Origin: a virus
Virus record (IMG/VR): IMGVR_UViG_3300014720_000244
Location: 1-20,093 of that record
DNA: 20,093 bases
Reading direction: 5' to 3' (one strand)
In this document: positions 3,001 through 16,664 of the stretch, one piece after another
Position numbering within the stretch: position 1 is the stretch's first letter
Layout of the letters: each line of letters begins with the position of its first letter
The notes under the pieces: model-generated
Databases searched by the model: none
What the model saw: only the letters and a program-made list of their open reading frames with translations
Told to the model about the DNA's origin: nothing
Made by a program: the position numbers and the translations under genes

Positions 3001-4081
3001 CTCTTTGGGAAACGTCGGAATCGGCACCTCGATCATGTCCGATAAGTTGGCTGTCAACGGCACGATGTCTGTCACAGGATCGACTACACTGGTTGGTGCA
3101 AGCAGCAATCTCACGGTCGGTGGTAGTGCAACGCTCGGTACGACGCGAAAAGTTTTCATAACGACGGATTATGCAGGTTCAGGAGAGTTGCTAGCTGGCG
3201 GTTATATCTCTAGCAATTCCACGAACAATATTTTCATATTACCCTCCTCGGATGGAGGCTCTGCAGGAGCGACCGTTGGTCTTGCTTACTACAGCCCGTC
3301 AGCATGGTATTCTGCGGTGCAAGTTTCAAACGTAAGCTCGGGTTATGGCACGTTGCTGCTCATGAAGACAGGTGGTAACGTAGGCATAGGCACCACAGTT
3401 GCTTCCGACAAGTTGGCCGTCAACGGAACGATGTCTGTCACAGGATCGACCCTGCCAGGTACCGACAACCTCTACAACCTTGGATCCGCTGCGAAACGTT
3501 GGGCCACGGTCTTCGCCACCTCTGTCTCCGGTTCTCTCACGGGCAGTAACGTCCTGGCGGGTCAAGTAGTCGTTGGTGGAACGGGTGGTGTCCTGTCGGG
3601 TTCCAACGACTTCTGGTGGGACAACTCCAACGGCAGGGTTGGCATCGGCACTTCATCTCCCAGCTTCAAACTTGAGGTCAATGGTGATTTTGCGGCATCG
3701 ACGAAGTCGTTCGTCATCCAACACCCCACCAAACCGGGCTGGAAGCTTCGCTATGGATCGCTAGAATCTCCTTATCACGGTGTGCGACTCACTGGGGAGG
3801 CCGAGGTTGTCGATGGAATTTGTGAAGTTGTGTTACCCGACTACATAAGCACGCTGTGTAAGCAAGAGGGAGCTCAAGTTCAGGTAACTAACCTCGGTCA
3901 TAACAAAATGTTGTGGGTTGACTCCCTTAATGTCGTTGATAACAAGTTTGTCGTAAAGAGCAAACATTGGTTCTTCATGAAGTTGTTCGGAAAGAAAAGT
4001 TACAAGTTTTATTGGTCTTTCACAGCTGTTCGTAAAGACATAGACGACATGGTCGTGGAGTTCAACCCATGCGGAAATTAA
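2..4081 (+). CDS. Long tail fibre protein with GNVGIGT repeats (5' end outside window)
   Basis: The reading frame is open from the left edge, and the first visible residues already match the internal repeat pattern (ERMRIDSAGNVGIGT), so the true start lies upstream; the TTG at position 5 is not a convincing start. About 1,359 residues are visible. They hold roughly 14 copies of a G-N-V-G-I-G-T motif, many preceded by ERMRIDS-type residues, as in beta-structured phage fibre shafts. Near residues 40-140 is a fibre module (DLGSTTYRWRDLY, then DNAILLNAG and GSLLWD). The last ~130 residues form a distinct cap starting near KSFVIQHPTKPG and ending FYWSFTAVRKD, a C-terminal domain I recall from fibre-like proteins of aquatic phages. 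No intramolecular-chaperone (S74) peptidase signature is seen. The role is inferred: a virion-surface fibre in host attachment. The stop overlaps the next gene by 13 bases. Confidence 0.85.
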   Translation: MLFSSAVTERMRIDSAGNVGIGTNNANSNRLAISGGNLSVTGSVLPGVTATYDLGSTTYRWRDLYARTGSFSGDVTVTGDLTVNGTQFIVNTTVVEIEDNAILLNAGPSPASTGGIYVADTTTGVTGSLLWDATTDQWKAGKLGSETTLVSGSGTTNYVAKWSGTNGLSNSTIFDNGTNVGISTTTPQSQFHVRNASTTATARLQGQLTANGTAAVLNFSNTQDIAGGYIIGSIGVERVSFDNSGELTFSTANAANTPTERMRITSAGNVGIGTNSITNHGAGSTNFAVNATSNALIDWMVNGTRTATAYAQGSVTNFGTVTATPLAFITQNAERMRIDSSGNVGIGTATVNSPLHLDAAAGSTIMRFSDSTNGTFGFIGAGSGLFTGTPATDFAIRAENSFFVRSNGALGIERFRITAGGTSAFTGSVEPGTDNLYDLGSSTKRWRNLYATSISGSLTGSNVLAGQIVIAGTGGALSGSNDLFWNNTSRFVGIGTSAPGYSLDIYNGSVKINKNNYLIIGNDTNDSIIVNDGPALFPTTDNVVTFNTYGGAWNFRDSQTAIARLTILANNGNVGIGGTNPVARFEVTGSGNSSGSTMHLLNSSNTSLMFVRDDGYVGIGTNTPTVSEKLSVIGNMMIGQGTANTTPAYLHITSGGGSYDSIIDFGYYTTFDASLWQIGRNGATGQFQINDTSSGTSNNALAIAVTTRNVGIGTTSISARLIVSGSSTTSTPTMIVQEGVPSPTGGVGVFNVQNSAGTSLLFVSGSGNVGIGTNVPTSYISSNSTVLAIAHTGNVATVRASSGPGLGSGNQVEFYASASQVGIWGSTNVPMVFHTNASERVRIDTSGNVGISTTSPSTRLDIVSGTLRAQYFAGAYDGELVAGVDAGGYYYGTGFGRNTSIPILIGSNASNIIMSAGGSERVRIVGSNGNVGIGTNAPTIYSGYTTLAVNNSTNGAVLDLMAAGTRHGTFFSTNTLSTIGTATATPFAFQINGSERARIDSLGNVGIGTSIMSDKLAVNGTMSVTGSTTLVGASSNLTVGGSATLGTTRKVFITTDYAGSGELLAGGYISSNSTNNIFILPSSDGGSAGATVGLAYYSPSAWYSAVQVSNVSSGYGTLLLMKTGGNVGIGTTVASDKLAVNGTMSVTGSTLPGTDNLYNLGSAAKRWATVFATSVSGSLTGSNVLAGQVVVGGTGGVLSGSNDFWWDNSNGRVGIGTSSPSFKLEVNGDFAASTKSFVIQHPTKPGWKLRYGSLESPYHGVRLTGEAEVVDGICEVVLPDYISTLCKQEGAQVQVTNLGHNKMLWVDSLNVVDNKFVVKSKHWFFMKLFGKKSYKFYWSFTAVRKDIDDMVVEFNPCGN
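1292..1450 (+). repeat. Fibre module, copy A of an internal duplication
   Basis: This stretch encodes PGTDNLYDLGSSTKRW, then GSLTGSNVLAGQ and SGSND just before a GIGT motif. A paralogous copy lies at about 3451-3610. The two agree closely in protein but differ at many synonymous sites, pointing to an old internal duplication or to exchange between fibres. Confidence 0.75.
3038..3084 (+). repeat. 47-base direct repeat, copy 1
   Basis: By eye, 44 of 47 bases match the copy at 3404-3450, and the last 23 bases are identical. It encodes SDKLAVNGTMSVTGS. All three differences are third-position changes that leave the protein unchanged. Confidence 0.8.
3404..3450 (+). repeat. 47-base direct repeat, copy 2
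   Basis: This is the second copy of the 3038-3084 repeat, lying in the same frame 366 bases downstream inside the first fibre gene. Recombination between the copies would delete exactly 122 codons and keep the frame. Confidence 0.8.
3451..3610 (+). repeat. Fibre module, copy B of the internal duplication
   Basis: This stretch encodes PGTDNLYNLGSAAKRW, GSLTGSNVLAGQ and SGSND in the same order as the copy near 1292-1450. It directly precedes the last GIGT motif and the C-terminal cap domain. Confidence 0.75.
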
Positions 4082-4482
4082 ATCTAACGTGTTGCAAGAT
4101 ATGCAATCAAGACTACACTTCGCTTGGTTTTGTTTACTGGAACACAGGTGGCGGTCACACCAACGGTCCGACCATCACCATTGCGAACGTTTTCAACAGC
4201 ACCACGACTTTTGTTTCCGTGTCCATGGTGTGGAACCACGTCGACAACAAGTACTATTTCTATAGAAACGGAGCGTGGATCAACACCACAAGCTGGACGG
4301 ACGCGTCGATAAATCAGAACAGGACAGACGGTTTCAATATTGGTGGTAACGTGTATCAATGGGGAACAGGAGGCCAATATTGGCCTGGCAGTATCGCTAG
4401 TTTAAGAGTCTGCAGTAGGGCGTTGTCTGCAGACGAAGTGTTGCGTAACTTCGACACCACAAAGGGAAGGTTCGGTTACTGA
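4069..4482 (+). CDS. Truncated/chimeric LamG protein (C-terminal half only)
   Basis: This 137-residue protein matches only the second half of the LamG (concanavalin A-like jellyroll) proteins found elsewhere in the window. It has the late strands (VSMVWNHVDNKYYFYRNGAW) and the shared ending ALSADEVLRNFDTTKGRFGY. The usual opening (SPK-V-GLV-LDAGN, then FDG) is absent. In its place the first ~20 residues are MRKLNLTCCKICNQDYTSLG, with a C-x2-C pair that looks foreign to the family. The start overlaps the fibre stop by 13 bases and has a TGGAG Shine-Dalgarno at 4056-4060, so it may still be translated. It may be a decayed copy created by a deletion, or a small functional variant. The stop and the next start share one base. 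Confidence 0.65.
   Translation: MRKLNLTCCKICNQDYTSLGFVYWNTGGGHTNGPTITIANVFNSTTTFVSVSMVWNHVDNKYYFYRNGAWINTTSWTDASINQNRTDGFNIGGNVYQWGTGGQYWPGSIASLRVCSRALSADEVLRNFDTTKGRFGY
4371..4386. other. 16-base perfect palindrome
   Basis: The sequence aggccaatattggcct equals its own reverse complement. It lies inside the truncated LamG coding region. It could be a protein-binding site or simply chance; roughly 0.3 such sites are expected per 20 kb of random sequence. Confidence 0.5.
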
Positions 4483-5246
4483 TGGCTGCCACGTACTCTC
4501 CAAAGACAGTGACAGACGGCCTCGTCGTTTTGCTCGACGCCGGCAACATCAAAAGTTATGGTGGCACAGGTACGCTGTGGCGCGACCTCAGCGGCAACTC
4601 GAACAATATGACGTTGACCAATGGACCTGCTTTTAGCAACGGCACAATACTTTTTGATTCGACAGATGATACTGCAACACTCGGGTTGGACTCGACGTAC
4701 TTACCTGCTCTTTCTAACTTCTCCATGGAAATGTGGATGAGGATAGACGCCTACCCAACTGCATTGGAGACTGCCAATGCATATGGAAACAAGCAGAAGG
4801 CAGGTGTCTTGTTTGGCGCTGTATACTATTCAGGGGTCGCACTGTATTGGTATGGTAATTCTACGGGAACCACACTGGACGTTTTTGCCTACATAAGAGG
4901 ACAAGATGCGTACCGCAATACTTCTCTTAAGACGATTGGTTTAAATGCTTGGTCACATCTCGTCCTAGTGAACAATTACACCGCGTCAAAGCTGCAACTG
5001 TACTTTAACGGTTCTCTTTTTAGTGAAGTCGCAGGTCCCACTCAAGAGTACAATCCTTCATTTACGGCCAACGCCGGAAACATTGGAATCTGTAAAGCAG
5101 GGTTCTCAGTAGATGGAGGTGGAACGCTTAACTACTCAAACCTAGACTGCGACGTCGCAATAGCTAAAATTTACAAGAACAAAGCCCTCAGTGCCAACGA
5201 AGTGCTGCAAAACTTCAACGCCCTGCGAGGAAGGTTCGGTCTCTGA
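4482..5246 (+). CDS. LamG (concanavalin A-like) domain protein, 254 aa
   Basis: A single LamG jellyroll with the full family layout. The N-terminal block is YSPKTVTDGLVVLLDAGN, followed by WRDLSGNSNNMTLTNGP, FDSTDD, the core strand FSMEMWMRIDAYP, AWSHLVLVNNYTASKLQLYFNG, and the shared C-terminus ALSANEVLQNFNALRGRFGL. Such domains typically bind glycans or proteins, so a virion-surface adhesion role is inferred. The ATG shares its A with the upstream TGA stop (TGATG), and GGAAGG at 4465-4470, in the codons of the previous gene's GRFG, serves as a Shine-Dalgarno. No signal peptide or membrane segment is seen. Confidence 0.85.
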   Translation: MAATYSPKTVTDGLVVLLDAGNIKSYGGTGTLWRDLSGNSNNMTLTNGPAFSNGTILFDSTDDTATLGLDSTYLPALSNFSMEMWMRIDAYPTALETANAYGNKQKAGVLFGAVYYSGVALYWYGNSTGTTLDVFAYIRGQDAYRNTSLKTIGLNAWSHLVLVNNYTASKLQLYFNGSLFSEVAGPTQEYNPSFTANAGNIGICKAGFSVDGGGTLNYSNLDCDVAIAKIYKNKALSANEVLQNFNALRGRFGL

Positions 5247-5896
5247 TGGCCCAGTACTTCTCACCTAAGATCGTCACCTCAAGTCTCGTTTTTTATCTTG
5301 ATTCTGCGAACCTGAAAAGTTATATTCGAAGCGGGACATCTTGGAGAGACATGGTGGGAGGTGTTAACTCGACGCTGACAAACGGTCCGACATACTCCAA
5401 TGACGTACAGGGAACTTTCATCTTCGACGGTTCCAATGACTATGCCGCTACAGGTAATGTGTCTCTGAGTTATCCAGCAGGTTACACTGTCGAAGTCGTC
5501 GTCAAGTACGCGACAATATCAGGCGCCCAAGGGTTGTTCAGCTATAACGATATTAGCAGTTCAAAGTATATAAATTTTTATAAGGCTGCTACGACGATGC
5601 GTTGGGAGACAAATGCTTCTCAGGAAATCAACAGTTCGACTCAATTATCGGCAGGTGTGTGGTACCACATCACAGGTGTCCACAACGGCACGACGGCTTT
5701 CCTTTACATTAACGCTCGCTTGGAAGCGAGTGGCAACCTGACGACGAGTACTTCCATGACAGCACCCATCGAGGTGGGTAGGTATGCTGGGCACACAAAC
5801 GGCAGCATTCCACTCGTGAGATTCTATACGAGGCCTCTTTCACCGAACGAGATACTCCAAAACTTTGAATCCGTCAGGGGTCGCTTCGGCATCTAA
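5246..5896 (+). CDS. LamG (concanavalin A-like) domain protein, 216 aa
   Basis: The opening is FSPKIVTSSLVFYLDSANLKSY, followed by WRDMVGG, LTNGPTYS, FDGSNDYA, the core strand YTVEVVVKY, VWYHITGVHNGTTAFLYINA and the ending PLSPNEILQNFESVRGRFGI. It is the last LamG gene of the + strand group. The start overlaps the upstream stop by one base (TGATG), and a GGAAGG stretch from the previous gene's GRFG codons lies 11 bases before the ATG. A virion-surface binding role is inferred. The core is very different from the neighbouring copy, although both ends are conserved. Confidence 0.85.
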   Translation: MAQYFSPKIVTSSLVFYLDSANLKSYIRSGTSWRDMVGGVNSTLTNGPTYSNDVQGTFIFDGSNDYAATGNVSLSYPAGYTVEVVVKYATISGAQGLFSYNDISSSKYINFYKAATTMRWETNASQEINSSTQLSAGVWYHITGVHNGTTAFLYINARLEASGNLTTSTSMTAPIEVGRYAGHTNGSIPLVRFYTRPLSPNEILQNFESVRGRFGI

Positions 5897-5960
5897 AGCT
5901 CTCCTTCCACAACAAAGAACGTGTCGATGCGGCACACAACTATATTTAGGACGATAAACC

Positions 5961-8435
5961 ATGCCACGTAACATCCTTATAGATCCGCAGAGGACAGGAA
6001 CAGCCAACCCAAACATTCAGTTCAGCGGCTCGATGGCCAACACCATCAAGTTGGAGGTGTTGACGTCAGGATCCGTCCAGTTCACAGGTGTGTCAGGTTC
6101 ACTCCTCAACGTCACCGATTCGCTGTCAGGCTCTCTCTTCGCCGTCTCCGACGTCTCCGGTCTTCCCATCATCGAGGTCTTCTCCGACGACAAGGTGGTC
6201 CTGGGTCAGTTCAACACCAACGCCTTCGTGGTGACCGGTAGTCGAGTCGGAATGGGAACGAACAACCCTGACGTGCGCCTCGTCATTTCCGGTGGTCTCG
6301 GTAATATTCGCATCGGTGAGGTTTTTCCGGCCTACAACGGCATCACGCTCAATGGCCTCACAAGCCAGAATGACTATAACTTCGCGTCAAGAACAACCGA
6401 TCAGAATCTCTATATAAACAGACCGGCGAGCCAAGCCATTCAGTTCCGAGAGGCGAATACAAATCAGATCATCTTCACCGCTGGAGGAAACGTCGGCGTC
6501 GGCACACAAACAGTGGGCACGAACAATGCACTTACAGTGTATAGAGGATCTACTACGAGTGCTTTCATTAGCTCTACAGGAAATGCCAACACACCAGGTT
6601 CGACTGATGCTGTCTTTGGACAAGACACGACAAGTGTCATGTATGTGTGGAACCGCGCGAACGCTGCTGCTATCTTCGGTACGAACTCATCTGAGAGGAT
6701 GCGTATCGACGCGTTAGGACGCTTACTCATCGGCGGGACGAGCACCTACGACTTCAACGGACAAGCAAACCTAGTTGTCAATGGCACTGCAAACAACGCC
6801 ACGATCACGGTAGCGTCGACGGGCATCGGGTATCTCGCATTTGCAGACGGGACCAGCGGCGGCGACCGGTTCGCAGGGCAGGTGCAATATACGCACTCGT
6901 CGGACACAATGTCTTTCCGCACGGCGGCAGCTGTACGCGTCACTATCGACTCTTCAGGCAACGTCGGCATCGGCACGGAGACGTCGACTGCTCGACTCGT
7001 GGTCTCCGGATCGAGCACCGCTTCCACACCGACGATGCTCGTCAGGGAAGGAGTCGTCTCGCCCACCGCCGGTGCCCTCGCCTTCGAGGTCGAGAATTCA
7101 CGTGGTTCCACTCTCTTTGCCGTCTCGGGAAGTGGCAACGTCGGCATCGGTACATCAAATCCTGCCGGTGTCTTTGAGGTCGTCGGCGTCTCGGGATCCC
7201 TCCTCCTCGTCACCGACAACCTCTCGGGATCCCTCTTCTCCGTCAACGACGTCACCGGTCTTCCAATATTCGAGGTCTTCTCTGACGACACCATCATCGC
7301 CGGCGCCGTCAACTCCAATGCCCTCGTCGTGACGGGAAGTCGCGTCGGCATCGGTGTGTCGACTCCTGACACGCGTCTCGACGTCTACACGACAAGTGCC
7401 AACGGCACAGACGGCCTGAGAGTCTTCGGCGGCGCCACGACGAGCAACGTGAGGATCCGCCCCGCGATGAGCTCAGGTACAAATAACAATATAGTTCAAA
7501 ATGGTGACAGCGGTATCATCTATGATGCAGGTGCTCAGGATACCGGTGCATTCGTCATCGCTCCTTGGGCCAGTAGCACATGCGGTTTGCGAATGGACGC
7601 CGTCGGCCGCGTAGGAATAGGAACAACAGCAGCAAACGCTCCACTTGAAGTTAGAAGCACAGCAGACGAAGTCTCGAGATTCGTCTCGACAGGCAACCCT
7701 TACATTTCTCTGTACAGTGGCACAACAAGGCACGGCTACTTTTATAGCGATGGTTCTGTCGTTCAGATAGTCAGTGAAGCGTCAAAATCCTTTGCGGTCC
7801 GCAGCGCAACGACTCTAAATTTACAATCAAACGGATCGTCATCCTCTTCGATATTTACGTTAGACACTGCAGGCAATGTCGGAATTGGTACCGCGGCGCC
7901 TGGAACAAAACTCCACGTGGAAGCAGGCAACATCAGGGTCTCCAGCGGTTACGGAATCGACTTCAGTCTCACCGCCAACGCCACAGGAGGCGCCAGCATC
8001 TCTGAAGTCCTTGACGATTATGAGGAGGGAACGTGGACACCGTCTTACTGGAAAGATGGGGCTGAAACTACGACCCAGTACACTACTACAGCTAATGCAG
8101 GTAACTACGTCAAGGTTGGAGCGAAAGTTACCGTCTGGTTCTCGGCGACCATCTCTACTAAAATTGCTGGTGACCAAGTTTTTGTTACAGACTTGCCTTA
8201 CCCAGTCGACGGTGGTGTCACAGACATCGTAGGGCAGTGGTATCCTACAGTTCCGACTGTAACCTCAGGAATTACTGTTGGAGACCTCGTTCTTTTGACG
8301 CCGTGTGGCGGCGTCGCATATGCAGAAATGTTGTACTTTTTGAACGACGGTAGCGGAGCAAGCTCTGGAGGAAATATTCTTTATAATGCTAATTCCGCGT
8401 TTGTAGGAACGTTAACTTATTGGACGAACAGTTGA
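5961..8435 (+). CDS. Second tail fibre protein with GNVGIGT repeats, 824 aa
   Basis: The protein is complete. It starts at ATG 5961 with an AGGA Shine-Dalgarno at 5948-5951. The N-terminus (MPRNILIDPQRTGTANPNIQF) may be the virion-attachment part. A module GVSGSLL-VTD-LSGSLF, GLPI-EVFSDD, VVTGSRVG appears twice, near residues 40-105 and 407-475. About eight GNVGIGT-type motifs run through the shaft. A block of about 55 residues (ARLVVSGSSTASTPTM to SGSGNVGIGT, near residues 345-395) closely matches one in the first fibre. Near residue 681 is LDDYEEGTWTP, a junction motif common in aquatic-phage fibres, followed by a ~140-residue cap. It probably acts as a receptor-binding fibre; this is inferred from the architecture. 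Confidence 0.85.
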   Translation: MPRNILIDPQRTGTANPNIQFSGSMANTIKLEVLTSGSVQFTGVSGSLLNVTDSLSGSLFAVSDVSGLPIIEVFSDDKVVLGQFNTNAFVVTGSRVGMGTNNPDVRLVISGGLGNIRIGEVFPAYNGITLNGLTSQNDYNFASRTTDQNLYINRPASQAIQFREANTNQIIFTAGGNVGVGTQTVGTNNALTVYRGSTTSAFISSTGNANTPGSTDAVFGQDTTSVMYVWNRANAAAIFGTNSSERMRIDALGRLLIGGTSTYDFNGQANLVVNGTANNATITVASTGIGYLAFADGTSGGDRFAGQVQYTHSSDTMSFRTAAAVRVTIDSSGNVGIGTETSTARLVVSGSSTASTPTMLVREGVVSPTAGALAFEVENSRGSTLFAVSGSGNVGIGTSNPAGVFEVVGVSGSLLLVTDNLSGSLFSVNDVTGLPIFEVFSDDTIIAGAVNSNALVVTGSRVGIGVSTPDTRLDVYTTSANGTDGLRVFGGATTSNVRIRPAMSSGTNNNIVQNGDSGIIYDAGAQDTGAFVIAPWASSTCGLRMDAVGRVGIGTTAANAPLEVRSTADEVSRFVSTGNPYISLYSGTTRHGYFYSDGSVVQIVSEASKSFAVRSATTLNLQSNGSSSSSIFTLDTAGNVGIGTAAPGTKLHVEAGNIRVSSGYGIDFSLTANATGGASISEVLDDYEEGTWTPSYWKDGAETTTQYTTTANAGNYVKVGAKVTVWFSATISTKIAGDQVFVTDLPYPVDGGVTDIVGQWYPTVPTVTSGITVGDLVLLTPCGGVAYAEMLYFLNDGSGASSGGNILYNANSAFVGTLTYWTNS
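6230..7900 (+). repeat. About 8 degenerate GNVGIGT coding repeats
   Basis: Motif copies include SRVGMGT, GGNVGVGT, SGNVGIGT (twice), SRVGIGV, GRVGIGT and AGNVGIGT. Several copies around 6950-7370 use GC-rich codons (ggcaacgtcggcatcggcac), unlike most copies in the first fibre gene. Confidence 0.8.
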
Positions 8436-8436
8436 T

Positions 8437-8441
8437 GAGGA
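8437..8441 (+). promoter_or_regulatory. Shine-Dalgarno of the 111-aa gene
   Basis: GAGGA lies six bases before ATG 8448 and supports that start. Confidence 0.7.
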
Positions 8442-8447
8442 ATTAAC

Positions 8448-8783
8448 ATGGAAATAGTAACAAGATACGCTTTAGAAAATTGTCAGATTGTCGAATCGAC
8501 CAAATGCATTCTCGTGAGATCTCGAGTTGAGAAGTGGGTTGTTTCTGGGACAGAGGAGATGCTTGTAGAGAGTAATGCTCACTTCCACAGGACTACTCTT
8601 TCTCCTGGGGACTGGGCTGGTGCAGACAAATGGGGTGTTAGACAGTACGCCGATGTCGCTTGGACTCAAGAAGTCATCGATTCCTGGCGACAATATGTTT
8701 CAACATTGTCACCTTCAAGAACGACACCGATATTATCGGGATCACAACTTCCTGTCTCGGGTTCTCAAGAAGAGACGACGTGA
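8448..8783 (+). CDS. Small protein of unknown function downstream of fibre, 111 aa
   Basis: I do not recognise this gene. It starts at ATG 8448, 12 bases after the fibre stop, with a good Shine-Dalgarno (GAGGA at 8437-8441, 6-base gap), so it is probably co-transcribed with the fibre. The protein has a compact first ~85 residues with several Trp (DWAGADKWGVRQY, then VAWTQEVIDSWRQYV) and a Ser/Thr/Pro-rich tail. Its position after a fibre gene would suit a fibre assembly chaperone or fibre-tip accessory protein; the W-x-x-Y-type helix near residues 71-84 is faintly reminiscent of tail-assembly chaperones, but this is a guess. The stop abuts the stop of the convergent YkgJ-like gene with no gap. 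Confidence 0.65.
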   Translation: MEIVTRYALENCQIVESTKCILVRSRVEKWVVSGTEEMLVESNAHFHRTTLSPGDWAGADKWGVRQYADVAWTQEVIDSWRQYVSTLSPSRTTPILSGSQLPVSGSQEETT

Positions 8784-8803
8784 TCAAAACTTCTTGTCTT
8801 TTA
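8766..8803 (+). terminator. Possible weak terminator at convergent gene ends
   Basis: CAAGAAG (8766-8772) and CTTCTTG (8790-8796) are perfect inverted repeats with a 17-base loop, followed by tcttttat on the + strand. The stem is short and the loop long. The placement, exactly across the meeting stops of two convergent genes, is what makes it plausible. Confidence 0.35.
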
Positions 8804-9242
8804 TGACGTTGTAGAACTCTTCTTCACCGAGTATGTGGTATTTCCCCTTTACTTGGTAATAAAGATTGAAGTTGTTCTTTATTGCCCAATGAAGTATCCA
8901 ATTGAGAATATCTGATTCGATCGTTCCGCCGGCCTCGACGGCGTGGTAGTACCTTATTCCTGACTCGATCCTCAGGGTCACTATGACTCCCGAGATGTCC
9001 GGTTTCAGCCAAGAAGGCAGGTTCTGGTCGCTGATCCACGCACACTCGTATTTTTTGCAGGGATTCTCTGGCCTAGAAGCGTAGATCGTGCAGTGTTTCT
9101 CTAGGAAGTGACATTTCCTACCTGGAAACATCTCGTGGCCGTGAACTGTGGAAGACAACCAACCTTCACAACATTTTGTGCAACCATTGCAGTGACGTTT
9201 TTGCAAGACGGGAAGCTGTAATTTTTGACCATGTGAGTTCAT
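8784..9242 (-). CDS. YkgJ-family cysteine-cluster protein, 152 aa
   Basis: The protein has the YkgJ-type pattern: C18-x2-C21-x2-C24-C25, then C44, C51 followed by IYASRP, C62 and C67. Members of this family are predicted to bind zinc or an iron-sulfur centre through these cysteines; most have no proven reaction. After residue 70 there is a non-cysteine alpha/beta tail. It lies downstream of the patatin-like gene on the same strand (52-base gap), suggesting co-transcription. The ATG at 9242 has no close Shine-Dalgarno: GGAGG lies 22 bases upstream (9265-9269), so either initiation is weak or a non-standard upstream start is used. It is an accessory gene of unknown role. An alternative is a chaperone-like metal-handling protein. 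Confidence 0.8.
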   Translation of the reverse strand: MNSHGQKLQLPVLQKRHCNGCTKCCEGWLSSTVHGHEMFPGRKCHFLEKHCTIYASRPENPCKKYECAWISDQNLPSWLKPDISGVIVTLRIESGIRYYHAVEAGGTIESDILNWILHWAIKNNFNLYYQVKGKYHILGEEEFYNVIKDKKF

Positions 9243-9294
9243 TATTGTTATTATAACACGTCAACCTCCACATGACAATGTTCTCCACAGCTGT

Positions 9295-9966
9295 TCACTT
9301 GTGCTTTAGGACGAATTTGTCTCCATCTTTCAGACCCTCCTCATACATCTCCACCGCCACCGCGGTGGACGGTATCTCGATCGTGTACTTGTCGAAGAGT
9401 GACAGGTGGGAGGGTCGTATGTCGGACCCGAATGACAGCGGCCACGCCGAGATCCTCAGAGTCTCATGGTGCTTCGACGGTTGGTTGCAGAGGACTCCGG
9501 CGTCGAGGTGGAGGATCCTGTTCTTGAGGCGGACCATGTCGTTCATCAGTGGGATGGAGACGGACGACTTCAGCGCCTCGAACATGTCGCCCTTCGAAGC
9601 GAACTCGTCCTGCATCACGTAGCTCATCTTGAAGGGAAAGAGGGACACCTTCGTGTAGCAGATGGTCAGTCTCCCCGTGGTGTGGACGTCCTTGGGCGTG
9701 GCGTCGTACATGTAGGCCGTCGACCTCTCCACCACCTCCCGCTTCTTCACGGACCGTGCTGCGTCGGCCGTGTTTAATGCCTCTTTAAATGCCTCATAGG
9801 CATCACCTCGAGTTAACAGGAATATTGCTGCGCCACCTCCTGCTGACGCTGTGATGTACTCCACGGTCGACAGGTCGACGAGTCCCGCCTCCGAGAGTCG
9901 GTGGATGACACCGAAATACCAGAACACCTTCCAACCGCAGCCGCTCAGCGAGATTCGAGTAAACAT
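9295..9966 (-). CDS. Patatin-like phospholipase/acyl hydrolase, ATGL (PNPLA2)-like, 223 aa
   Basis: Patatin-fold lipases use a Ser-Asp dyad. Visible here are the oxyanion-loop region SGCGWKVFWYFGV (residues 8-20), the nucleophile motif T-A-S41-A-G-G (family G-x-S-x-G, with the first Gly replaced by Thr) and the acid motif L-D155-A-G (family D-G-G/A). Between them, GRLTICYTKVS and a helix with SSVSIPLM align by eye with the corresponding segments of animal adipose triglyceride lipase (SGCG, GASAG, GRL-TRVS, VDGG). The expected reaction is hydrolysis of acyl esters of phospholipids or neutral lipids. The length matches a minimal patatin core, and no signal peptide or membrane segment is seen. 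The role in infection is unknown; attack on host membranes or lipid stores is possible. The minus-strand ATG is preceded by AGGTG only 2 bases away, so the ribosome-binding site is poor. Confidence 0.8.
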   Translation of the reverse strand: MFTRISLSGCGWKVFWYFGVIHRLSEAGLVDLSTVEYITASAGGGAAIFLLTRGDAYEAFKEALNTADAARSVKKREVVERSTAYMYDATPKDVHTTGRLTICYTKVSLFPFKMSYVMQDEFASKGDMFEALKSSVSIPLMNDMVRLKNRILHLDAGVLCNQPSKHHETLRISAWPLSFGSDIRPSHLSLFDKYTIEIPSTAVAVEMYEEGLKDGDKFVLKHK

Positions 9967-10023
9967 GTCACCTAGACTAACTATAATGTGCGGTGACCCA
10001 GATCGTTATAGGTCGGTGTCAAT

Positions 10024-10039
10024 CGAGAAAAAATTCTCG
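10024..10039. other. Small perfect hairpin in leader
   Basis: CGAGAA (10024-10029) pairs with TTCTCG (10034-10039) around an AAAA loop. No T-run follows on the + strand, so it is not a normal terminator. It may be an operator or an RNA element in the leader of the 64-aa gene. Confidence 0.4.
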
Positions 10040-10082
10040 TCGGGGAGTTTACGCGAAACTTCCTGTGTTTATCCTCAACAAC

Positions 10083-10092
10083 GTTTGCAAAC
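10083..10092. promoter_or_regulatory. Palindrome GTTTGCAAAC beside the ribosome-binding site
   Basis: This is a perfect 10-base palindrome ending three bases before the AGGTGA Shine-Dalgarno of the 64-aa gene. Its position would suit a repressor or translational control site, but chance cannot be excluded. Confidence 0.35.
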
Positions 10093-10094
10093 AA

Positions 10095-10100
10095 AGGTGA
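10095..10100 (+). promoter_or_regulatory. Shine-Dalgarno of the 64-aa gene
   Basis: AGGTGA lies five bases before ATG 10106 and selects this start over the much longer upstream open frame, whose sequence antisense to the lipase gene is not gene-like. Confidence 0.7.
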
Positions 10101-10105
10101 ATCAC

Positions 10106-10300
10106 ATGGAAAATGAATTGGTAGAGAGACAGAACAGGGCACTCAACATCCTCGTGGAAGCGGCACGATTGGCACAGGCCCGTGGAGCCTATACTCTGGA
10201 GCAGGCGGCGCTCGTCGCCGAGGCCATCGCGGTCTTCCGCCCGGCGGACCAGGGGCAGGCGGCCCCGGCGGCACCTCCGGCCGAAACACCGGTGTTCTGA
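10106..10300 (+). CDS. Small helical protein of unknown function, 64 aa
   Basis: The frame continues upstream to 9851, but the real start is taken as ATG 10106, which has a good Shine-Dalgarno and begins the plausible protein MENELVERQNRALNILVEAA. Residues 1-45 are predicted amphipathic helix (ALNILVEAARLAQARGAYTLEQAALVAEAI), and the last ~18 residues are an Ala/Pro-rich tail ending TPVF. Short proteins with this ALNIL-x-A-x-x-AQ-x-x-GA-T/S-LE-A pattern are, from memory, frequent in tailed phages but have no assigned function. It stands alone on the + strand between two - strand blocks, with its own leader and terminator, so it is likely a separate transcription unit. Confidence 0.75.
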   Translation: MENELVERQNRALNILVEAARLAQARGAYTLEQAALVAEAIAVFRPADQGQAAPAAPPAETPVF

Positions 10301-10302
10301 TG

Positions 10303-10337
10303 AAAAAACGGGACCGCAAGGTCCCGTTTGCTTTTAT
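10303..10337. terminator. Strong bidirectional rho-independent terminator
   Basis: CGGGACC (10309-10315) pairs with GGTCCCG (10320-10326) around a GCAA loop, with flanking AAA/TTT extending the stem to 10 bp. On the - strand the stem is followed by six T (complement of 10303-10308); on the + strand it is followed by tttgcttttat. It sits three bases past the stop of the 64-aa gene and overlaps the stop of the convergent LamG gene, so one hairpin ends both units. Confidence 0.92.
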
Positions 10338-11059
10338 ACTCCAAACCTGCTCTTCGTCGCGTTGTAATTCCGTAGAACTTCTGTCGCTGTCAAGACCCTG
10401 TTGTAGACTTTCAGCAATCCTACACTTCCCAATATAGAGAAACCTGTGTTACCTCCCCACCCCGAACCGTACGGGTATAGAGACATAATCGTGAGCGGGT
10501 GTGTGTCGTTAAAGTCTCCATATGTAGGCGTGTTGACAGTGAGGCTGTGATTGGAAGGTCCGGCGTTCAGGACCCCGTTCCGGTAAATGGTAATCTGCGT
10601 GGGCGTGATGATGAACACACCATGCTCCCAGTTTCCCGTAGCGAACTGTGAGTACGAGAGATTGAAATATCCTGAGTTATTTCCTGCTTGAAAACCCGTG
10701 TTGGTGATGTAATAATTGTATTCGCCGTTTCCATTCCACGGTTTTGACACAAAAAATCCATTCGAATCTGACGTCTTCACCCACATCTCAAAGGTAAGTG
10801 TATTGCTACCTGCTCCGCTGGGGGTCCATTGAAATTTTCTACTTGAGTTGTTTATTGCAAGGTAGTCGTTGGAACCATCAAACGACCAGCTTCCAACACC
10901 GTCTGTCGAAAAAGATGGACCGTTTGTTAGTATCGATGAAACGCCGCCTATTAAATCGACTGCGTCGGTTCCGCTCCCAGGATAACTTTTTCTGTTGCCC
11001 GCATCGATGCAGTACACAAGCCCGTTGATCGTTCCGTCAGGTCCACTAGAGACTGTCAT
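10334..11059 (-). CDS. LamG domain protein, 241 aa, last gene of the minus-strand array
   Basis: Family landmarks in order: GLVYCIDAGNRKSYPGSGT, VDLIGG, LTNGPSFS, FDGSNDYLA, the core strand LTFEMWVKTSDSNGFF, ITIYRNGVL, and the end VLTATEVLRNYNATKSRFGV. It is a single jellyroll with no signal peptide; a virion-surface binding role is inferred. The start lies directly against the upstream TAA stop (TAAATG), and a GAGG from the previous gene's Arg-Phe codons, six bases before the ATG, serves as Shine-Dalgarno. Its stop runs into the bidirectional terminator. Confidence 0.85.
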   Translation of the reverse strand: MTVSSGPDGTINGLVYCIDAGNRKSYPGSGTDAVDLIGGVSSILTNGPSFSTDGVGSWSFDGSNDYLAINNSSRKFQWTPSGAGSNTLTFEMWVKTSDSNGFFVSKPWNGNGEYNYYITNTGFQAGNNSGYFNLSYSQFATGNWEHGVFIITPTQITIYRNGVLNAGPSNHSLTVNTPTYGDFNDTHPLTIMSLYPYGSGWGGNTGFSILGSVGLLKVYNRVLTATEVLRNYNATKSRFGV

Positions 11060-11719
11060 TTAAAACCTCGTCTTAACAGCGTTGTAGTTTTGTAATACTT
11101 CCGAAGGTGTCAAAGGCCTGTTGTAGATCATCACAGGTCCAATTCCGCCTGAGTATATGGATGACGTAGAAAATGCACGACGACCGATCTTTAAGATACC
11201 AGTCGGTGTGAACGTTGTCGTGCCAGTGAATTTGTAAGAATCCAACTGGCCATTGATGAAGAAACCTGTCGTTCTGGAAGCGTATGTCATGACGACGTTG
11301 TTCCATTGACCATTTTGAATCGTCGAGTAGGCTGCAGTCGCAGCGACTCCTGTGGTGAGGTTATTGAAATTCACGTTGAGGCCGAACCACTCAAGGCATC
11401 CGGTAGGATCATTACCAATGTTACCTTGGTCTATCAGGTATCCGCCATTTGGATTGAGCAACCACACGCTCAGCGTAAAGTTATTCGACAGTTGCACGCC
11501 TGATCCACAATTGATGTAGTCATCGGTTCCGTCGAAATTGAAATAGCCTAACTTAGAAGATGTGATCTGAGAAACACCATTGACCAAGGTTCCATGGTTA
11601 CCGTTTCCGCTGAGGTCATTGACACGAGTTCCCGACCCAGGATAACTTTTCGGATTACCTGGGTCGTAGTTGAGCAGGAGGTCTCGAGAAATTACTCTTG
11701 GCGAATACGCTACAGACAA
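11060..11719 (-). CDS. LamG domain protein with TTG start, 219 aa
   Basis: The start is TTG (complement of 11717-11719), chosen because a perfect AGGAGG (complement of 11725-11730) lies five bases upstream and the protein begins in family style (SVAYSPRVISRDLLLNYDPGNPKSYPGSGT). It continues with DLSGNGNHGTLVNG, FDGTDDYINCG, FTLSVWLLN and WNNVVMTY. It ends PLTPSEVLQNYNAVKTRF, two residues short of the usual RFGx. It lies one base past the stop of the 117-residue gene. The core differs strongly from its neighbours. Confidence 0.85.
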   Translation of the reverse strand: MSVAYSPRVISRDLLLNYDPGNPKSYPGSGTRVNDLSGNGNHGTLVNGVSQITSSKLGYFNFDGTDDYINCGSGVQLSNNFTLSVWLLNPNGGYLIDQGNIGNDPTGCLEWFGLNVNFNNLTTGVAATAAYSTIQNGQWNNVVMTYASRTTGFFINGQLDSYKFTGTTTFTPTGILKIGRRAFSTSSIYSGGIGPVMIYNRPLTPSEVLQNYNAVKTRF

Positions 11720-11720
11720 A

Positions 11721-12074
11721 TCAACCTCCTGACGTCTCGGGAGACGGCATCGATGCAGTCCACTCAGGCGTCGACAGCATCGTCAGCATCTCTTCGTGGG
11801 TGTAAGGTCCCTCCTTCGTCGTGAGGTCGTCGTAGAAAGAGGGATAACCAGGTGGTGAGACGACTGTCTGTGTCGTCCCCTCCGCCGCGACCGGATCGTC
11901 TGCGGGAGCCCCATGGTCCACTTGCAGAAACTTGGTGTCCCACTTGACGAACGTCTTCGTACCGTCAACCGACTTGCGGAGTGTCTCCGCAGACGTCTCG
12001 AGGACTTGAGTGAAGTCGACCTTGTCTATCTCGCTGACGTTGAAGACGATGTAGTTTCTGCTTGTGTAGTTCAT
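11721..12074 (-). CDS. Conserved-looking protein of unknown function inside the LamG array, 117 aa
   Basis: This is the only non-LamG gene in the minus-strand array. The first ~50 residues (YIVFNVSEIDKVDF, ETSAETLRKSVDGTKTFVKW) look like a small beta-alpha-beta fold, followed by an acidic/Pro linker and a C-terminal helix region (PSFYDDLTTKEGPYTHEEML, LSTPEWT). From memory, similar small proteins with the SVDGTKTFVKW and TPEWT motifs sit near fibre genes of T4-like aquatic phages without known function. The start overlaps the upstream LamG stop by four bases (ATGA), with a GAGGAAG Shine-Dalgarno nine bases upstream. A fibre-assembly or attachment helper role is only inferred from context. Confidence 0.75.
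   Translation of the reverse strand: MNYTSRNYIVFNVSEIDKVDFTQVLETSAETLRKSVDGTKTFVKWDTKFLQVDHGAPADDPVAAEGTTQTVVSPPGYPSFYDDLTTKEGPYTHEEMLTMLSTPEWTASMPSPETSGG
11725..11730 (-). promoter_or_regulatory. AGGAGG Shine-Dalgarno that fixes a TTG start
   Basis: A perfect AGGAGG overlaps the final Ser-Gly-Gly codons of the 117-residue gene and stands five bases before the TTG of the downstream LamG gene. Confidence 0.8.
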
Positions 12075-12799
12075 GTCCCGAATCTTCCTCTCAATGCGTT
12101 GTAGTTCTGTGCAACTTCTGCTGCACTTAAATATACCGTGTGGATCATCATCGATCCAAGTGTACCTGCGAAGACGTTACCATACGAGTCAGTCCCCGGA
12201 CCGTATCCCTCGGAATTGCAGGGACCCCAGTAAGATCCTATGCACACCAAGGGACCAGACTTGTCCTGCAGAAGAGTCGCTGAAAAGTCCTGCACACCAT
12301 TGATGTACATCACCATCGTCGTGCCTGTCTTCGCCCAGACGACGTTCTTCCAAGTGTCGTCGTTGACGCTAGTCGTGCCCTGTGTCGCCTGCCACGAAGT
12401 CGTGTAGTATATGTAGCGCATCTTCCCGGCATTGATGCCGTATCCTAGACCGACAGGTCCACCATTACAATGTGATAGTAAACCTCTATCGAGCGTGTCC
12501 GTCAACTTTATCCAGGCAGACACCGTTATGTCTGACCCCGCAGTAATCGTCGACGCCATTCTGCCCCAGTCGTTCACACCGTCGAAAGTAAACTCTCCGA
12601 CTCTCGTCGTTCCTCTCGTGGGTGGACCAGGTGAGACCGCAGAATACGTCGTCCCGCCTGCATTGTAGAAGGTCACGTGCCTGTTGTTACCGCTGCTGTC
12701 GTACCAGATCGCACCGCCTGACGCCGGATAGTTTAACGTGTCGGCGGCATCGAGGAACAAGCTTAGTCCTCTCGTGACAATTTGTGGTCCGTTCCTCAT
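12071..12799 (-). CDS. LamG domain protein, 242 aa
   Basis: Landmarks: QIVTRGLSLFLDAADTLNYPASG, WYDSSGNNRHVTF, FDGVNDWGRM, the core strand ITVSAWIKLTDTLDRGLL, WKNVVWAKTGTTMVMYINGV and the end YLSAAEVAQNYNALRGRFGT. It overlaps its upstream neighbour's stop by four bases (ATGA) and the downstream gene likewise, indicating coupled translation. The Shine-Dalgarno GGGAGG is embedded in the previous gene's RGRFG codons eight bases before the ATG. Virion-surface binding is inferred. Confidence 0.85.
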   Translation of the reverse strand: MRNGPQIVTRGLSLFLDAADTLNYPASGGAIWYDSSGNNRHVTFYNAGGTTYSAVSPGPPTRGTTRVGEFTFDGVNDWGRMASTITAGSDITVSAWIKLTDTLDRGLLSHCNGGPVGLGYGINAGKMRYIYYTTSWQATQGTTSVNDDTWKNVVWAKTGTTMVMYINGVQDFSATLLQDKSGPLVCIGSYWGPCNSEGYGPGTDSYGNVFAGTLGSMMIHTVYLSAAEVAQNYNALRGRFGT

Positions 12800-13458
12800 A
12801 TTCCGAACCTCCCGCGGAGAGCATTGAAGTTTTGTGCAACTTCTGATGCAGAAAGAGCCCTGTTGTAGTGTCTCGCAACTGCAACTTTCCCGTTGACGGG
12901 CCCGCTGTAGTCAGTCCCCGATATTTTATGGACTCCGACGCTGTATATTGTGGAGCCTGTCGATGCCCTTGTTGCACCAAGATTTCCGTTGATATAGGAT
13001 TTCAGCTCTTGTGCCGAATTATCATAGGTACCCGCTATGTGTGCCCATGTTCCCCAAGATATTGTTGAAGATGTTGTGGAGCCGAGTTGACCACCAGAAG
13101 AAAAGTTATACATCGTCAGCGTCGCGTTTGAATTAACCTCAAGAGCATTTCCTTGCCAATTCACCAAAACTATGTGCCGCACACCTGTCGAGTTTAGATT
13201 TACCCATGCTTCAAATGTTACGCTGGCGGTATTAAATGCAGCATTTATTGGGATTGACACGAAATCGCTTATACCGTTAAAGTTTAACGTACCACTATTA
13301 TCTGTTGAAAATGTTGGACCGCTTAATGTACAGGTATAGTTATTGCCGCTTAGATCCAACCATGATGTTCCGCTTCCAGGGTAACTGTTCCTGTCGGCAG
13401 CATCGAGCCCGAGCACCAAACCGTTCGTGACGACCTTTGGACCACGATAGAATGACAT
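12796..13458 (-). CDS. LamG domain protein, 220 aa
   Basis: Landmarks: KVVTNGLVLGLDAADRNSYPGSGT, WLDLSGNNYTCTLSGPTFS, FNGISDFVSIP, VTFEAWVNLNSTG, TWAHIAGTYDNSAQELKSYING and the end ALSASEVAQNFNALRGRFGI. This is the closest copy to the consensus of the array. The start shares one base with the upstream stop (TGATG), and the stop overlaps the downstream start by four bases. The GGAAGG Shine-Dalgarno comes from the upstream gene's GRFG codons. A single jellyroll, probably a surface-binding module. Confidence 0.88.
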   Translation of the reverse strand: MSFYRGPKVVTNGLVLGLDAADRNSYPGSGTSWLDLSGNNYTCTLSGPTFSTDNSGTLNFNGISDFVSIPINAAFNTASVTFEAWVNLNSTGVRHIVLVNWQGNALEVNSNATLTMYNFSSGGQLGSTTSSTISWGTWAHIAGTYDNSAQELKSYINGNLGATRASTGSTIYSVGVHKISGTDYSGPVNGKVAVARHYNRALSASEVAQNFNALRGRFGI

Positions 13459-14129
13459 CAGACGCCGAACCTTCCGCGGAGAGCGTTGTAATTCTGAGAT
13501 ATTTCTGCGTCACTTAGGTATTTCCTGTAGATCATGATGTTGGCCATATTACCCAAGACGTAGTTACCGATTGTGAACGTGGATGCCAAGCCTGAGGGAG
13601 TCGACGTGTTATTAGGTCCACCTGTGCTGATGTTCGATAGGTTCCTCAAGATCTGTCTGTCTCCTGTGGAGTTTCTGAAACGAAACGTCGCCATGACCCA
13701 GCCCTGTGCAGTGAACTGTCCTCCGTACGTGTAGTAATCATCCACTCCGCCATTTAAGTACATGATGGAGTTGTTTCCCTGCCACGCTTCTATCATGTTT
13801 CCTTGGTTCATGCCGGTGACCAGATACTGAGGAACCCCACCAGGTCTGTTAGATATGTTTATCCACGACACGACTGTCCAAACCTGCGCCGCCGCAGTCT
13901 GACCTAAGGGATTTGCAACCGATGCATACATGTTCGATCCATCGAATGCAAGACTGCCACCACCTGATGTGCTGTAGACAGGAGTGCCTGTGAATGTGCC
14001 GTGGTTGTTGTTACCGCTGATGTCTTTCCACCCACCTCCCACAGTGGTCAAGCTGTTCTTGTCACCTGCATCGAGGTGCAAGACAAGACTGCTGTCTCTT
14101 ACTATGATAGGCCCACCCACGGTGCTCAT
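13458..14129 (-). CDS. LamG domain protein, 223 aa
   Basis: Landmarks: PIIVRDSSLVLHLDAGDKNSL, WKDISGNNNHGTFTGTP, FDGSNMYAS, the core strand WTVVSWINISNRPGG, WVMATFRFRNSTGDRQIL and the end YLSDAEISQNYNALRGRFGV. Overlap with the upstream gene is four bases (ATGA). GGGAGG in the upstream gene's final codons lies eight bases before the ATG. The central region (LVTGMNQGNMIEAWQGNNS) is unlike any neighbour, so the binding face probably differs. Confidence 0.86.
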   Translation of the reverse strand: MSTVGGPIIVRDSSLVLHLDAGDKNSLTTVGGGWKDISGNNNHGTFTGTPVYSTSGGGSLAFDGSNMYASVANPLGQTAAAQVWTVVSWINISNRPGGVPQYLVTGMNQGNMIEAWQGNNSIMYLNGGVDDYYTYGGQFTAQGWVMATFRFRNSTGDRQILRNLSNISTGGPNNTSTPSGLASTFTIGNYVLGNMANIMIYRKYLSDAEISQNYNALRGRFGV

Positions 14130-15385
14130 ACTCCATACCTCCCACGCAGTGCATTGAAATTCTGCTTCACTTCTGCGGCACTCAACGCTCTGTTATACAC
14201 TTTGACGACGCTGATCTCACCGTTGTAGTAGTAACTTCTAGCACCGTTGTAACCACCATAGGCACCGATGGAGATGCCGTTGGTGTTCGTATCGATAGTC
14301 CCTGTTTGCGAATCAGAGTTCACAAGATTACCATTGATGTAGAGTCTTCTACTGCCTGACGTGTATGTTCCAACTATGTGAGCCCACGAAGATGTGTTGA
14401 TGTACGTCGCGGTCGCAACTCTCATGTCAAGCAACGATCCCCCTAACCTCATTCTCCACACTATGTCTGCATCTTGTTGAAAGAGACTGTACTGTGTATT
14501 GACATTTCCTTTTTCAAAGAAGAAACCGTTCTGAGTCGTGGCGTTTGTCTTAATCCATACCTCTACCGTCGGCGTCTGGGTGTTCAATATCGAATTCTCG
14601 GGCGAGATGATAACTTGATTTGTGCCACCGAACGAGAAAGATCCTAAACTTCCCGACGTGAAGCTTGGTGTATTGACGAGCTCTGCGCTGCCCTGGCCTC
14701 GAGCCAGGTCGAGAACACCACCACCAGTTGCAGCCGTTGCACCACGAACTACACTTGGTTCAGGCATGTGCTGAGGAGGAAATACGTACGTACCTGCCGT
14801 TAACGATACGTTCGCGACATAAACTGTGTTATTCGTCGCGTACTCGTAGTGAAACAGATATGTGTTTAATTTTGCTGTTGTCGCCTGCGTCGTGAATTGT
14901 CCCCACGCATACCACCATCCATCACCGAGAGATATTCTTCTAGAAGAGTTCCATACACCTGCTTCTGCCACGTATACGTTGGAAGAAGTGTACTCGTATC
15001 GATACATGTAGTTCGCATTGAGGCTGCCACCTGTGAGTTCTTTGTAGATGATTGCATACGTGTATGTAGTTGAAGGACTCACCTCTATCAAACCGGTGAA
15101 GTAATACAGAGCAGGACAACAGTTTCCCGATGTTGGTGGATTGTTATTGTTATAGTCGTTGTAGATGTAAACTGACTTCGCCGACCTACGACCCAACAAC
15201 GGTATGTTGACGTCTTCTGCACCCTGTTGATACTTGAACGTCGCCGTGTCGGAGTTGCTGTAGTAGTAGTAGATCCCATTGATCAAATTAGTCGCCGGTA
15301 ATCCCTTGAACGACCTGATGTTGGCTGCGTCATAGCACATCACGAGGCCGTTGGAGACTGTCTTAGGAGAGAAATGCTGACTCAT
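14126..15385 (-). CDS. Two-domain LamG protein with inserted beta-rich module, 419 aa
   Basis: This is the first gene of the minus-strand array and almost twice the usual length. It opens with the family N-terminus (FSPKTVSNGLVMCYDAANIRSF, residues 5-26). The LamG pattern is then interrupted by ~190 residues rich in Tyr, Thr and aromatic strands (VSPSTTYTYAIIYKE, YMYRYEYTSSNVYV, GDGWWYAWGQFTTQATT), resembling a carbohydrate-binding (CBM-type) jellyroll. LamG resumes near GVLDLARGQG, with FSFGGTNQ, TVEVWIKTNATTQNGFFFEKGN, SWAHIVGTYTSGSRRLYING and the end ALSAAEVKQNFNALRGRYGV. No clear Shine-Dalgarno precedes the ATG. It is probably a receptor- or glycan-binding surface protein. The CBM assignment is by pattern only. 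Confidence 0.82.
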   Translation of the reverse strand: MSQHFSPKTVSNGLVMCYDAANIRSFKGLPATNLINGIYYYYSNSDTATFKYQQGAEDVNIPLLGRRSAKSVYIYNDYNNNNPPTSGNCCPALYYFTGLIEVSPSTTYTYAIIYKELTGGSLNANYMYRYEYTSSNVYVAEAGVWNSSRRISLGDGWWYAWGQFTTQATTAKLNTYLFHYEYATNNTVYVANVSLTAGTYVFPPQHMPEPSVVRGATAATGGGVLDLARGQGSAELVNTPSFTSGSLGSFSFGGTNQVIISPENSILNTQTPTVEVWIKTNATTQNGFFFEKGNVNTQYSLFQQDADIVWRMRLGGSLLDMRVATATYINTSSWAHIVGTYTSGSRRLYINGNLVNSDSQTGTIDTNTNGISIGAYGGYNGARSYYYNGEISVVKVYNRALSAAEVKQNFNALRGRYGV

Positions 15386-15488: not shown

Positions 15489-16664
15489 ATGGCGACTTTC
15501 GCGAACACCATATCACCCACACCATTCGGTTTCTTCGACTCCGACTCCGACTTTCAGACAGAAGCTGACGGTATGGTCACCTATGTCAAGCGGAAGCTTG
15601 GAGACGACGTCCTCTCTGTCGAATTGACGAAGAAGGAGATCTGGGCATGCTTCGAAGAGGCGACCTGTGAGTACTCCCGTCTCGTCCACGAGACGAAGAT
15701 CGTGTCGGAGTTGACGAACGTCCTCGGTACTGCCACGGGATCCATCGACCTCACCAACAGATACACCCAGAGGTCGCTGGAATATCTCTTGAGAATGGCT
15801 GAACCGTACGCCACCAATGCTTTCGTCGGAGGTTCTGAGAACTCCATACTCGGATACTTCGACCTCGTCTCGGGGCAACAGGACTACGACATCTACACGG
15901 AACTCAAGAATTTCGTCAGCGGTACCAACGTATACGACAACCTGACGGGACAGAAGGGCAAGTTACGAGTCGTTGAGCTCTTCCACATGGAACCGCTCGC
16001 CGCCCAGCAGTTCCTCCTCAACGCGAGCAACATCACCAACTTCCTCGCCACCAACTTCAATTACGAGTCGTACGTCAACTCCTCCATCTTCTACGTCCTC
16101 CCCATCTTCGAAGACGTCCTCAGGAGAGGCATGTTGGAGTCGGCTTTCAGGGTGAGGAGGTCGCACTACTCCTACGAGATCATGGGCAGCAAGCTGAGGA
16201 TATACCCGATACCCACGACCGACTTGCAGACAGGAAAGCTCTTCTGCAAGGTGTTGCCGCCGCAGAATCCCTTAAGCCCCTCCGCGTACGGAGACCAGAC
16301 CATCTACGGAGTCTCCGGCCCGCAGAACATGCCGCTTGGTAACGTGCCGTTCACGACCATAAACCAACCAGGTCGTCAGTGGATTCGTCAGTACACGCTG
16401 GCCTTGGCTCGGGAGTTGCTCGGTCTCATCCGTTCTAAGTTTCAGAACATACCCATTCCCAATGCGGACCTGCAGCTCAACGGTGACGCATTGGTGTCCC
16501 AGGGTCGTGAGGACAAAGACAAACTGCAGACGCAGATGAAAGAATTCCTTGCGCAGTTGACGCATCAGAAACTGCTCGAGGCCGATGCCCTCGCCGCTGA
16601 GTCGCTCAATAAGCAACTAAAGTATGTCCCGATGCCTAAGGGCCACACCATCTCTATAGGTTGA
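15489..16664 (+). CDS. Head-tail connector/neck protein, gp13-like, 391 aa
   Basis: The protein begins MATFANTISPTPFGFFDSDS and carries an N-terminal adaptor-type helical segment (YVKRKLGDDVLSVELTKKEIWACFEEATCEYS, residues ~35-65), typical of connector proteins that bind the portal. A central beta-rich part follows (VVELFHMEP, YEIMGSKLRIYP). The C-terminus (YTLALARELLGLIRSKFQNIPIP, then a long helical region to MPKGHTI) matches what I recall of T4-superfamily structural proteins in this gene position. T4 gp13 is about 309 residues, so this one is longer. The role is inferred from pattern plus the following gp14-, gp15- and gp18-like genes: closing the filled head and joining the tail. The next gene starts three bases after the stop. 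Confidence 0.65.
   Translation: MATFANTISPTPFGFFDSDSDFQTEADGMVTYVKRKLGDDVLSVELTKKEIWACFEEATCEYSRLVHETKIVSELTNVLGTATGSIDLTNRYTQRSLEYLLRMAEPYATNAFVGGSENSILGYFDLVSGQQDYDIYTELKNFVSGTNVYDNLTGQKGKLRVVELFHMEPLAAQQFLLNASNITNFLATNFNYESYVNSSIFYVLPIFEDVLRRGMLESAFRVRRSHYSYEIMGSKLRIYPIPTTDLQTGKLFCKVLPPQNPLSPSAYGDQTIYGVSGPQNMPLGNVPFTTINQPGRQWIRQYTLALARELLGLIRSKFQNIPIPNADLQLNGDALVSQGREDKDKLQTQMKEFLAQLTHQKLLEADALAAESLNKQLKYVPMPKGHTISIG

Follow-up and report, generated by a model that had tools for sequence, protein, structure and literature searches.

Two arrays of LamG genes in the host-recognition island of an uncultured T4-like phage: a probable recombining repertoire of lectin-like adhesins

The nine LamG genes and their setting

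The window analysed here is an IMG/VR virus fragment of 20,093 nt. Its gene content, as judged from Pfam and PHROG matches, is that of a T4-like myophage, with two fibre genes, a neck protein, a gp15-like sheath stabiliser (PF16724) and a tail sheath, and on sequence grounds we assign it to an uncultured phage of this type (Table 1). A second contig of the same phage (L009) was 99.99% identical to the window over 9768 nt. Cultured relatives are distant, with neck proteins 34% (Microcystis phage Mel-JY01) and 27% identical (Flavobacterium phage immuto, in which the homologue is annotated as head completion). A search of genome contigs with the neck gene returned only a 33% relative, in a Chthoniobacterales MAG, and identified no host. 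The hosts are probably bacteria of lakes, a lake source being suggested by the sample series of the relatives.

Table 1. Features of the LamG island and its borders in the window
Feature	Position	Strand	Basis or remark
Tail fibre gene with GNVGIGT repeats; its 5' end lies beyond the window	2–4081	+	PHROG tail fibre families
LamG A1, N-terminally truncated remnant	4069–4482	+	PF13385 positions 54–150 only
LamG A2	4482–5246	+	PF13385; start overlaps A1 stop (TGATG)
LamG A3, final gene of array A	5246–5896	+	PF13385; RGR codons AGG GGT CGC
Second tail fibre gene, immediately 3' of array A	5961–8435	+	PHROG tail fibre families
Patatin-like protein marking the conserved left border	9295–9966	−	PF01734
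Small conserved gene 'sm', border marker	10109–10300	+	66–91% identity in relatives
Candidate terminator: 10-bp stem immediately 3' of array B	10306–10329		Scan hit
LamG B6, final gene of array B	10334–11059	−	PF13385
LamG B5	11060–11719	−	PF13385; TTG start, ends KTRF without final G
orf117, single copy within array B	11721–12074	−	Family of LamG-neighbour proteins
LamG B4	12071–12799	−	PF13385
LamG B3 (LG7)	12796–13458	−	PF13385; AlphaFold2 model
LamG B2	13458–14129	−	PF13385
LamG B1 (LG9), extra beta domain	14126–15385	−	PF13385; model pLDDT 80
Neck/head-completion protein, conserved right border	15489–16664	+	PHROG 211 head-tail adaptor

A reading made previously from the sequence only had placed nine LamG frames here, three on the plus and six on the minus strand, and all nine matched PF13385 above the family cut-off at those places, with no hits across 50 shuffled windows. 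Pairwise protein identity among the nine was 22–36%. Eight of the frames are complete and the remaining one, A1, is a remnant, since it begins in mid-domain and the N-terminal motif is absent upstream of it in every frame; the upstream sequence is that of the fibre gene, whose end A1 overlaps by 13 nt. Of the cassette, A1 has kept the C-terminal half, together with its junction with A2. The extra beta domain of B1 comprises about 190 aa. The arrays are located between the tail-fibre genes and the neck gene: array A is flanked by the two fibre genes, and array B runs antiparallel to the structural genes, close to the patatin gene, and is split between B4 and B5 by the non-LamG gene orf117. Same-strand runs of at least six LamG genes were found in 11 of 72 distinct LamG contigs, so the array of the window is not unique.

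The patatin-like protein is 88–91% identical to its counterparts in two relatives (L022 and L028), and the start codon of 'sm' lies a few bases upstream of 10109, within a frame listed as 9851–10300. Terminator-like hits across the window were not above the number in shuffled sequences, and the T4 late promoter motif (ATAAATA) does not occur in the window. The second fibre gene contains a 106-nt direct repeat (6087–6192 and 7185–7290, 78% identity), which suggests an internal duplication. The frame at 8784–9242 (minus strand) encodes a cysteine-cluster protein whose sole matches are PHROG 9155 and 11468, of unknown function; a homologue (42–53%) is present in several relatives, on the opposite strand relative to the neck gene.

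The sequence-only reading also held that the nine proteins share both ends and have strongly divergent middles. When conservation was scored by position over 61 LamG proteins, the values were 2.82 bits for residues 1–51, 1.40 for residues 66–186 and 2.80 for residues 187–220 (p = 1e-20), in keeping with that description. The shared ends do not extend in full to all nine genes: A1 lacks the N-terminal motif and B5 ends in KTRF. Conservation of the C-terminus is, in part, a general property of PF13385 proteins. The AlphaFold2 model of B3 (pLDDT 87, pTM 0.86) consists of a two-sheet jellyroll followed by a C-terminal helix bearing QNFNALRGRF, and Foldseek matches to PDB structures (E-values down to 7e-10) confirmed the predicted fold as ConA-like. 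The best PDB matches were lectin-like domains of sialidases and other receptor-binding domains, and the best virus matches included cyanophage and uncultured-phage proteins, those of S-PM2 and S-SKS1 among them. We regard the LamG core as the predicted carbohydrate- or surface-binding part. Solved structures align to the profile only as far as about position 215–220 of 227, so the final helix lies mostly outside the common domain. When the C-terminal motif was searched for as a module independent of the LamG fold, four apparently spurious hits were obtained outside LamG proteins, against 355 within them.

Members of the orf117 family (85–117 aa) have no Pfam or PHROG match. A profile search of viral contigs gave 65 distinct loci among the best 80 kept; 62 of these hold LamG genes, in 59 a LamG gene lies within 60 nt, and orf117 is single copy in 64, although some bias is possible in these figures, as the profile was built from members adjoining LamG genes and covers the best 80 loci only. 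In the isolate collection, a single member used as query matched S-SKS1 and immuto alone, both of which are LamG phages. A shared adaptor or chaperone would be a reasonable guess for the function of orf117.

Turnover of genes and movement of cores in relatives

The neck-protein search identified 80 relatives. Those with a neck protein 83–92% identical to that of the window have the neck and tail genes in common with it, and also patatin and 'sm' wherever the contig extends far enough. Neither a fixed gene order nor similar cores were found when copy number and order were compared: ten genomes carried between 1 and 10 LamG genes, which occupied a single strand or both and lay at different places between the conserved borders. 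The layout is patatin, 'sm', six LamG genes and neck in the window; patatin, ten LamG genes, 'sm' and neck in L028; and patatin, 'sm', three plus-strand and three minus-strand LamG genes and neck in L022. The locus thus has the form of a T4-like host recognition cluster, a variable island beside the neck gene with conserved patatin/'sm' and neck borders. Nine close relatives have 4 kb or more of upstream sequence, and three of them show no LamG gene; among 17 more distant neck relatives with 8 kb or more, a single one has a LamG gene there.

Among the 38 LamG genes of the ten genomes, median identity was 29.9% between genomes and 30.0% within one, and few pairs exceeded 50%. Orthologues above 65% were confined to the window and L017, to L016, L018 and L021, and to two L020/L028 pairs, the order of which is permuted. 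Of the LamG genes in the window, B1 alone has a clear orthologue among the neck-gene relatives (70% identical, in L017). No phage nearly identical to that of the window but bearing a different array was found, L009 being the same phage. Omega values were 0.04–0.19 for most LamG orthologues, as expected under purifying selection, and higher (0.38–1.08) in the closest pair, L129/L137; the generally low values in surviving orthologues suggest that the proteins are in use. Three conserved plus-strand genes (about 160–180, 120–136 and 190 aa) lie directly 5' of the neck gene in relatives (L028:8404–9897; L022:8350–9780; L016:7777–9308); the window is without this block, and B1 adjoins its neck gene.

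One alternative makes the LamG proteins permanent components of the particle that diverged after an old duplication, decorate different sites of the capsid or tail and form no changing host-range repertoire. Their PHROG matches, virion structural proteins filed under head and packaging, would fit such a role, as would the intact overlapping genes and the purifying selection on orthologues. However, genes for such components would be expected to persist among relatives, as those for neck, sheath and patatin do, whereas relatives with an 83–92% identical neck hold 1 to 10 LamG genes and almost no orthologues, and we consider this explanation unlikely.

The clearest evidence for core movement comes from two contigs of a phage different from that of the window, L129 and L137, with flanks mostly 94–97% identical. 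Their five-gene LamG arrays agree at genes 1, 3 and 5, but a core of about 640 nt found in gene 4 of L129 is that of gene 2 of L137 (97–100% identity). The ends stayed in place, the first 38 or so and the last 20 or so nucleotides tracking gene position. A four-way alignment gave 184 informative sites for a move and none for a reciprocal exchange, and the 17 sites tracking gene position were all at the two ends, with switch points within the shared motifs LDAAN-SY-GSG and QNYDAL. The alignment points to one clear transfer of a LamG core between array positions, a single case in metagenome assemblies. The swap could possibly reflect an assembly mis-join at a shared stretch of about 44 nt, exchanging the two cores of one contig; even so, the gene 2 cores would differ between the two phages and the ends agree, so that core replacement would remain. 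Gain and loss of cassettes was observed in another pair, L098 and L116, in which LamG genes 97–98% identical are interleaved with unrelated LamG genes and two LamG cassettes form an indel. The LamG junctions of the window are 64–76% alike at the DNA level and, given these conserved junctions and the turnover in relatives, its own arrays may recombine by the same mechanism.

No dedicated enzyme for core movement has been found so far. Inversion by site-specific repeats was rejected, as there are no suitable repeats, the longest inverted repeat being 68 nt at 71% identity; the inverted repeats, weak or short and mostly LamG gene ends, do not resemble those of an invertible fibre cassette of the phiCh1 or Mu type. 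Ten window proteins scanned with Pfam included no reverse transcriptase, and no repeat matching a diversity-generating retroelement was detected in the window, which is a fragment.

Junctions between LamG genes overlap mostly as ATGA or TAATG/TGATG, and the R-G-R codons of the end motif read GGR AGR, a ribosome-binding site with a spacing that fits the next start. AGG was present in the RGR codons in 67 of 120 cases when a gene follows and in 13 of 64 otherwise (p = 4e-6), and a Shine-Dalgarno core in 87 of 120 and 24 of 64, respectively (p = 7e-6), both p values being optimistic because related sequences are not independent. The codon bias was stronger before a following gene in 25 of the 33 contigs having both kinds. 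RGR codon choice therefore depends on whether a gene follows. Ribosome-binding sites within the preceding gene are common in phage operons; the unusual point is the location of this one in the conserved end of the cassette.

These signals bear on a second alternative, a silent archive in which one or a few LamG copies are used and the remainder donate cores by gene conversion. The core transfer between positions and the remnant copy in the window are compatible with an archive. However, eight of the nine frames are complete, the junction signals are kept, and purifying selection on orthologues at different places fits expression of most copies, making an archive quite improbable.

A proposed recombining adhesin repertoire

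We consider it likely that the nine genes, which lie in the host-recognition island of a T4-like phage, encode a set of lectin-like adhesins that is renewed by recombination. In each cassette, a variable jellyroll core would be set between a constant strand region at the N-terminus and, at the C-terminus, a constant strand and helix ending in RGRFG. Homologous recombination in the constant ends would replace cores or move them between array positions, and whole cassettes would be gained and lost, leaving relatives with the same tail and neck holding different sets. With the RGR codons acting as the Shine-Dalgarno sequence of the next gene, a core swap between the ends would spare the start, the stop and the next translation signal. 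The constant ends probably dock the LamG proteins at a shared site on the fibre or baseplate, and orf117, the single-copy partner, may take part. The repertoire and recombination store proposed from the sequence are well supported by the strong turnover, the permuted orthologues, the two-cassette indel and the one core transfer; we infer display on the virion, ligand binding at surfaces and an effect on host range.

According to their record labels, LamG relatives in immuto and S-PM2 are structural, and in S-PM2 homologous LamG domains lie at the C-terminal ends of large proteins that carry a virion structural label. The S-PM2 labels, together with the position of array A between two fibre genes, make it very unlikely that the LamG proteins act in or on the infected cell and not in the virion, as surface lectins or in superinfection exclusion with the nearby patatin in the same function, despite the orientation of array B opposite to the structural genes and close to the patatin gene.

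The adhesin repertoire can tentatively be extended to a plug-in system, in which constant orf117 and constant ends would mount interchangeable LamG cores on the same virion site and the end motif would combine three roles, those of docking helix, site of recombination and ribosome-binding site for the following cassette, with the particles of one clone showing a mixed, quickly renewed binding set; we regard this as possible but rather doubtful.

Relation to known systems

In T4-like phages of aquatic habitats, namely pelagimyophages and cyanomyophages, a hypervariable host recognition cluster (HRC) lies upstream of the neck gene, and concanavalin-A-domain proteins have been reported in the structural operon of HRC phages (PMC7029224). 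The island described here resembles the HRC in its location in the structural region beside the neck gene and in its fibre genes, but differs in that single-domain LamG genes follow one another head to tail in long arrays. Pelagimyophage HRCs conspicuously contain glycosyltransferases, of which none was seen among the genes identified in the window, and the other border of the HRC is the VrlC baseplate gene, whereas the window ends inside a fibre gene on that side. Metaviromic islands, as presented in part of one report, are phage regions that vary within populations and are enriched in genes for lectin-like and carbohydrate-binding proteins (PMC3909814); in that part they are defined by read under-recruitment, unlike the island here, and no array structure is described. 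LamG domains in phage fibres are already known (PMC7824862). The T-even gp38-type adhesins of hafunaviruses (PMC8651126) are, like the LamG array, small, with variable segments and in a hypervariable region, and they set host range; unlike the LamG proteins, they are glycine-rich, of unrelated sequence and encoded by one gene rather than an array.

Our literature search, of incomplete coverage, found nothing specific on phage LamG arrays. Within the literature searched, four features are apparently new: long arrays of stand-alone LamG cassettes, a core that has moved between genes, a translation signal placed in the end motif, and the orf117 family. Already known in aquatic phages are a hypervariable host recognition island by the neck gene and the occurrence of lectin-like genes in variable regions (PMC7029224, PMC3909814). 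The question touched upon is how phages of uncultured aquatic bacteria track changing cell surfaces. An array of same-fold adhesins in which the cores move and the ends stay fixed would be a counterpart, working by recombination, of retroelement or invertase systems.

The LamG proteins of immuto, S-SKS1 and S-PM2 have the same domain and the same ends as those of the window, but are only about 27–36% identical to them. These phages have up to three LamG genes, or LamG domains fused to large proteins, whereas the window has nine, mostly stand-alone. In immuto, adjacent LamG genes are followed by an orf117 homologue and then a fibre gene, and the orf117 family provides both a testable partner and a marker for finding LamG arrays. 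Besides orf117, another kind of small gene, zinc-ribbon-like with CxxC pairs, recurs among the LamG genes of several arrays (L095:3568–3813; L098:5705–5899; L108:1212–1436; L118:12459–12656).
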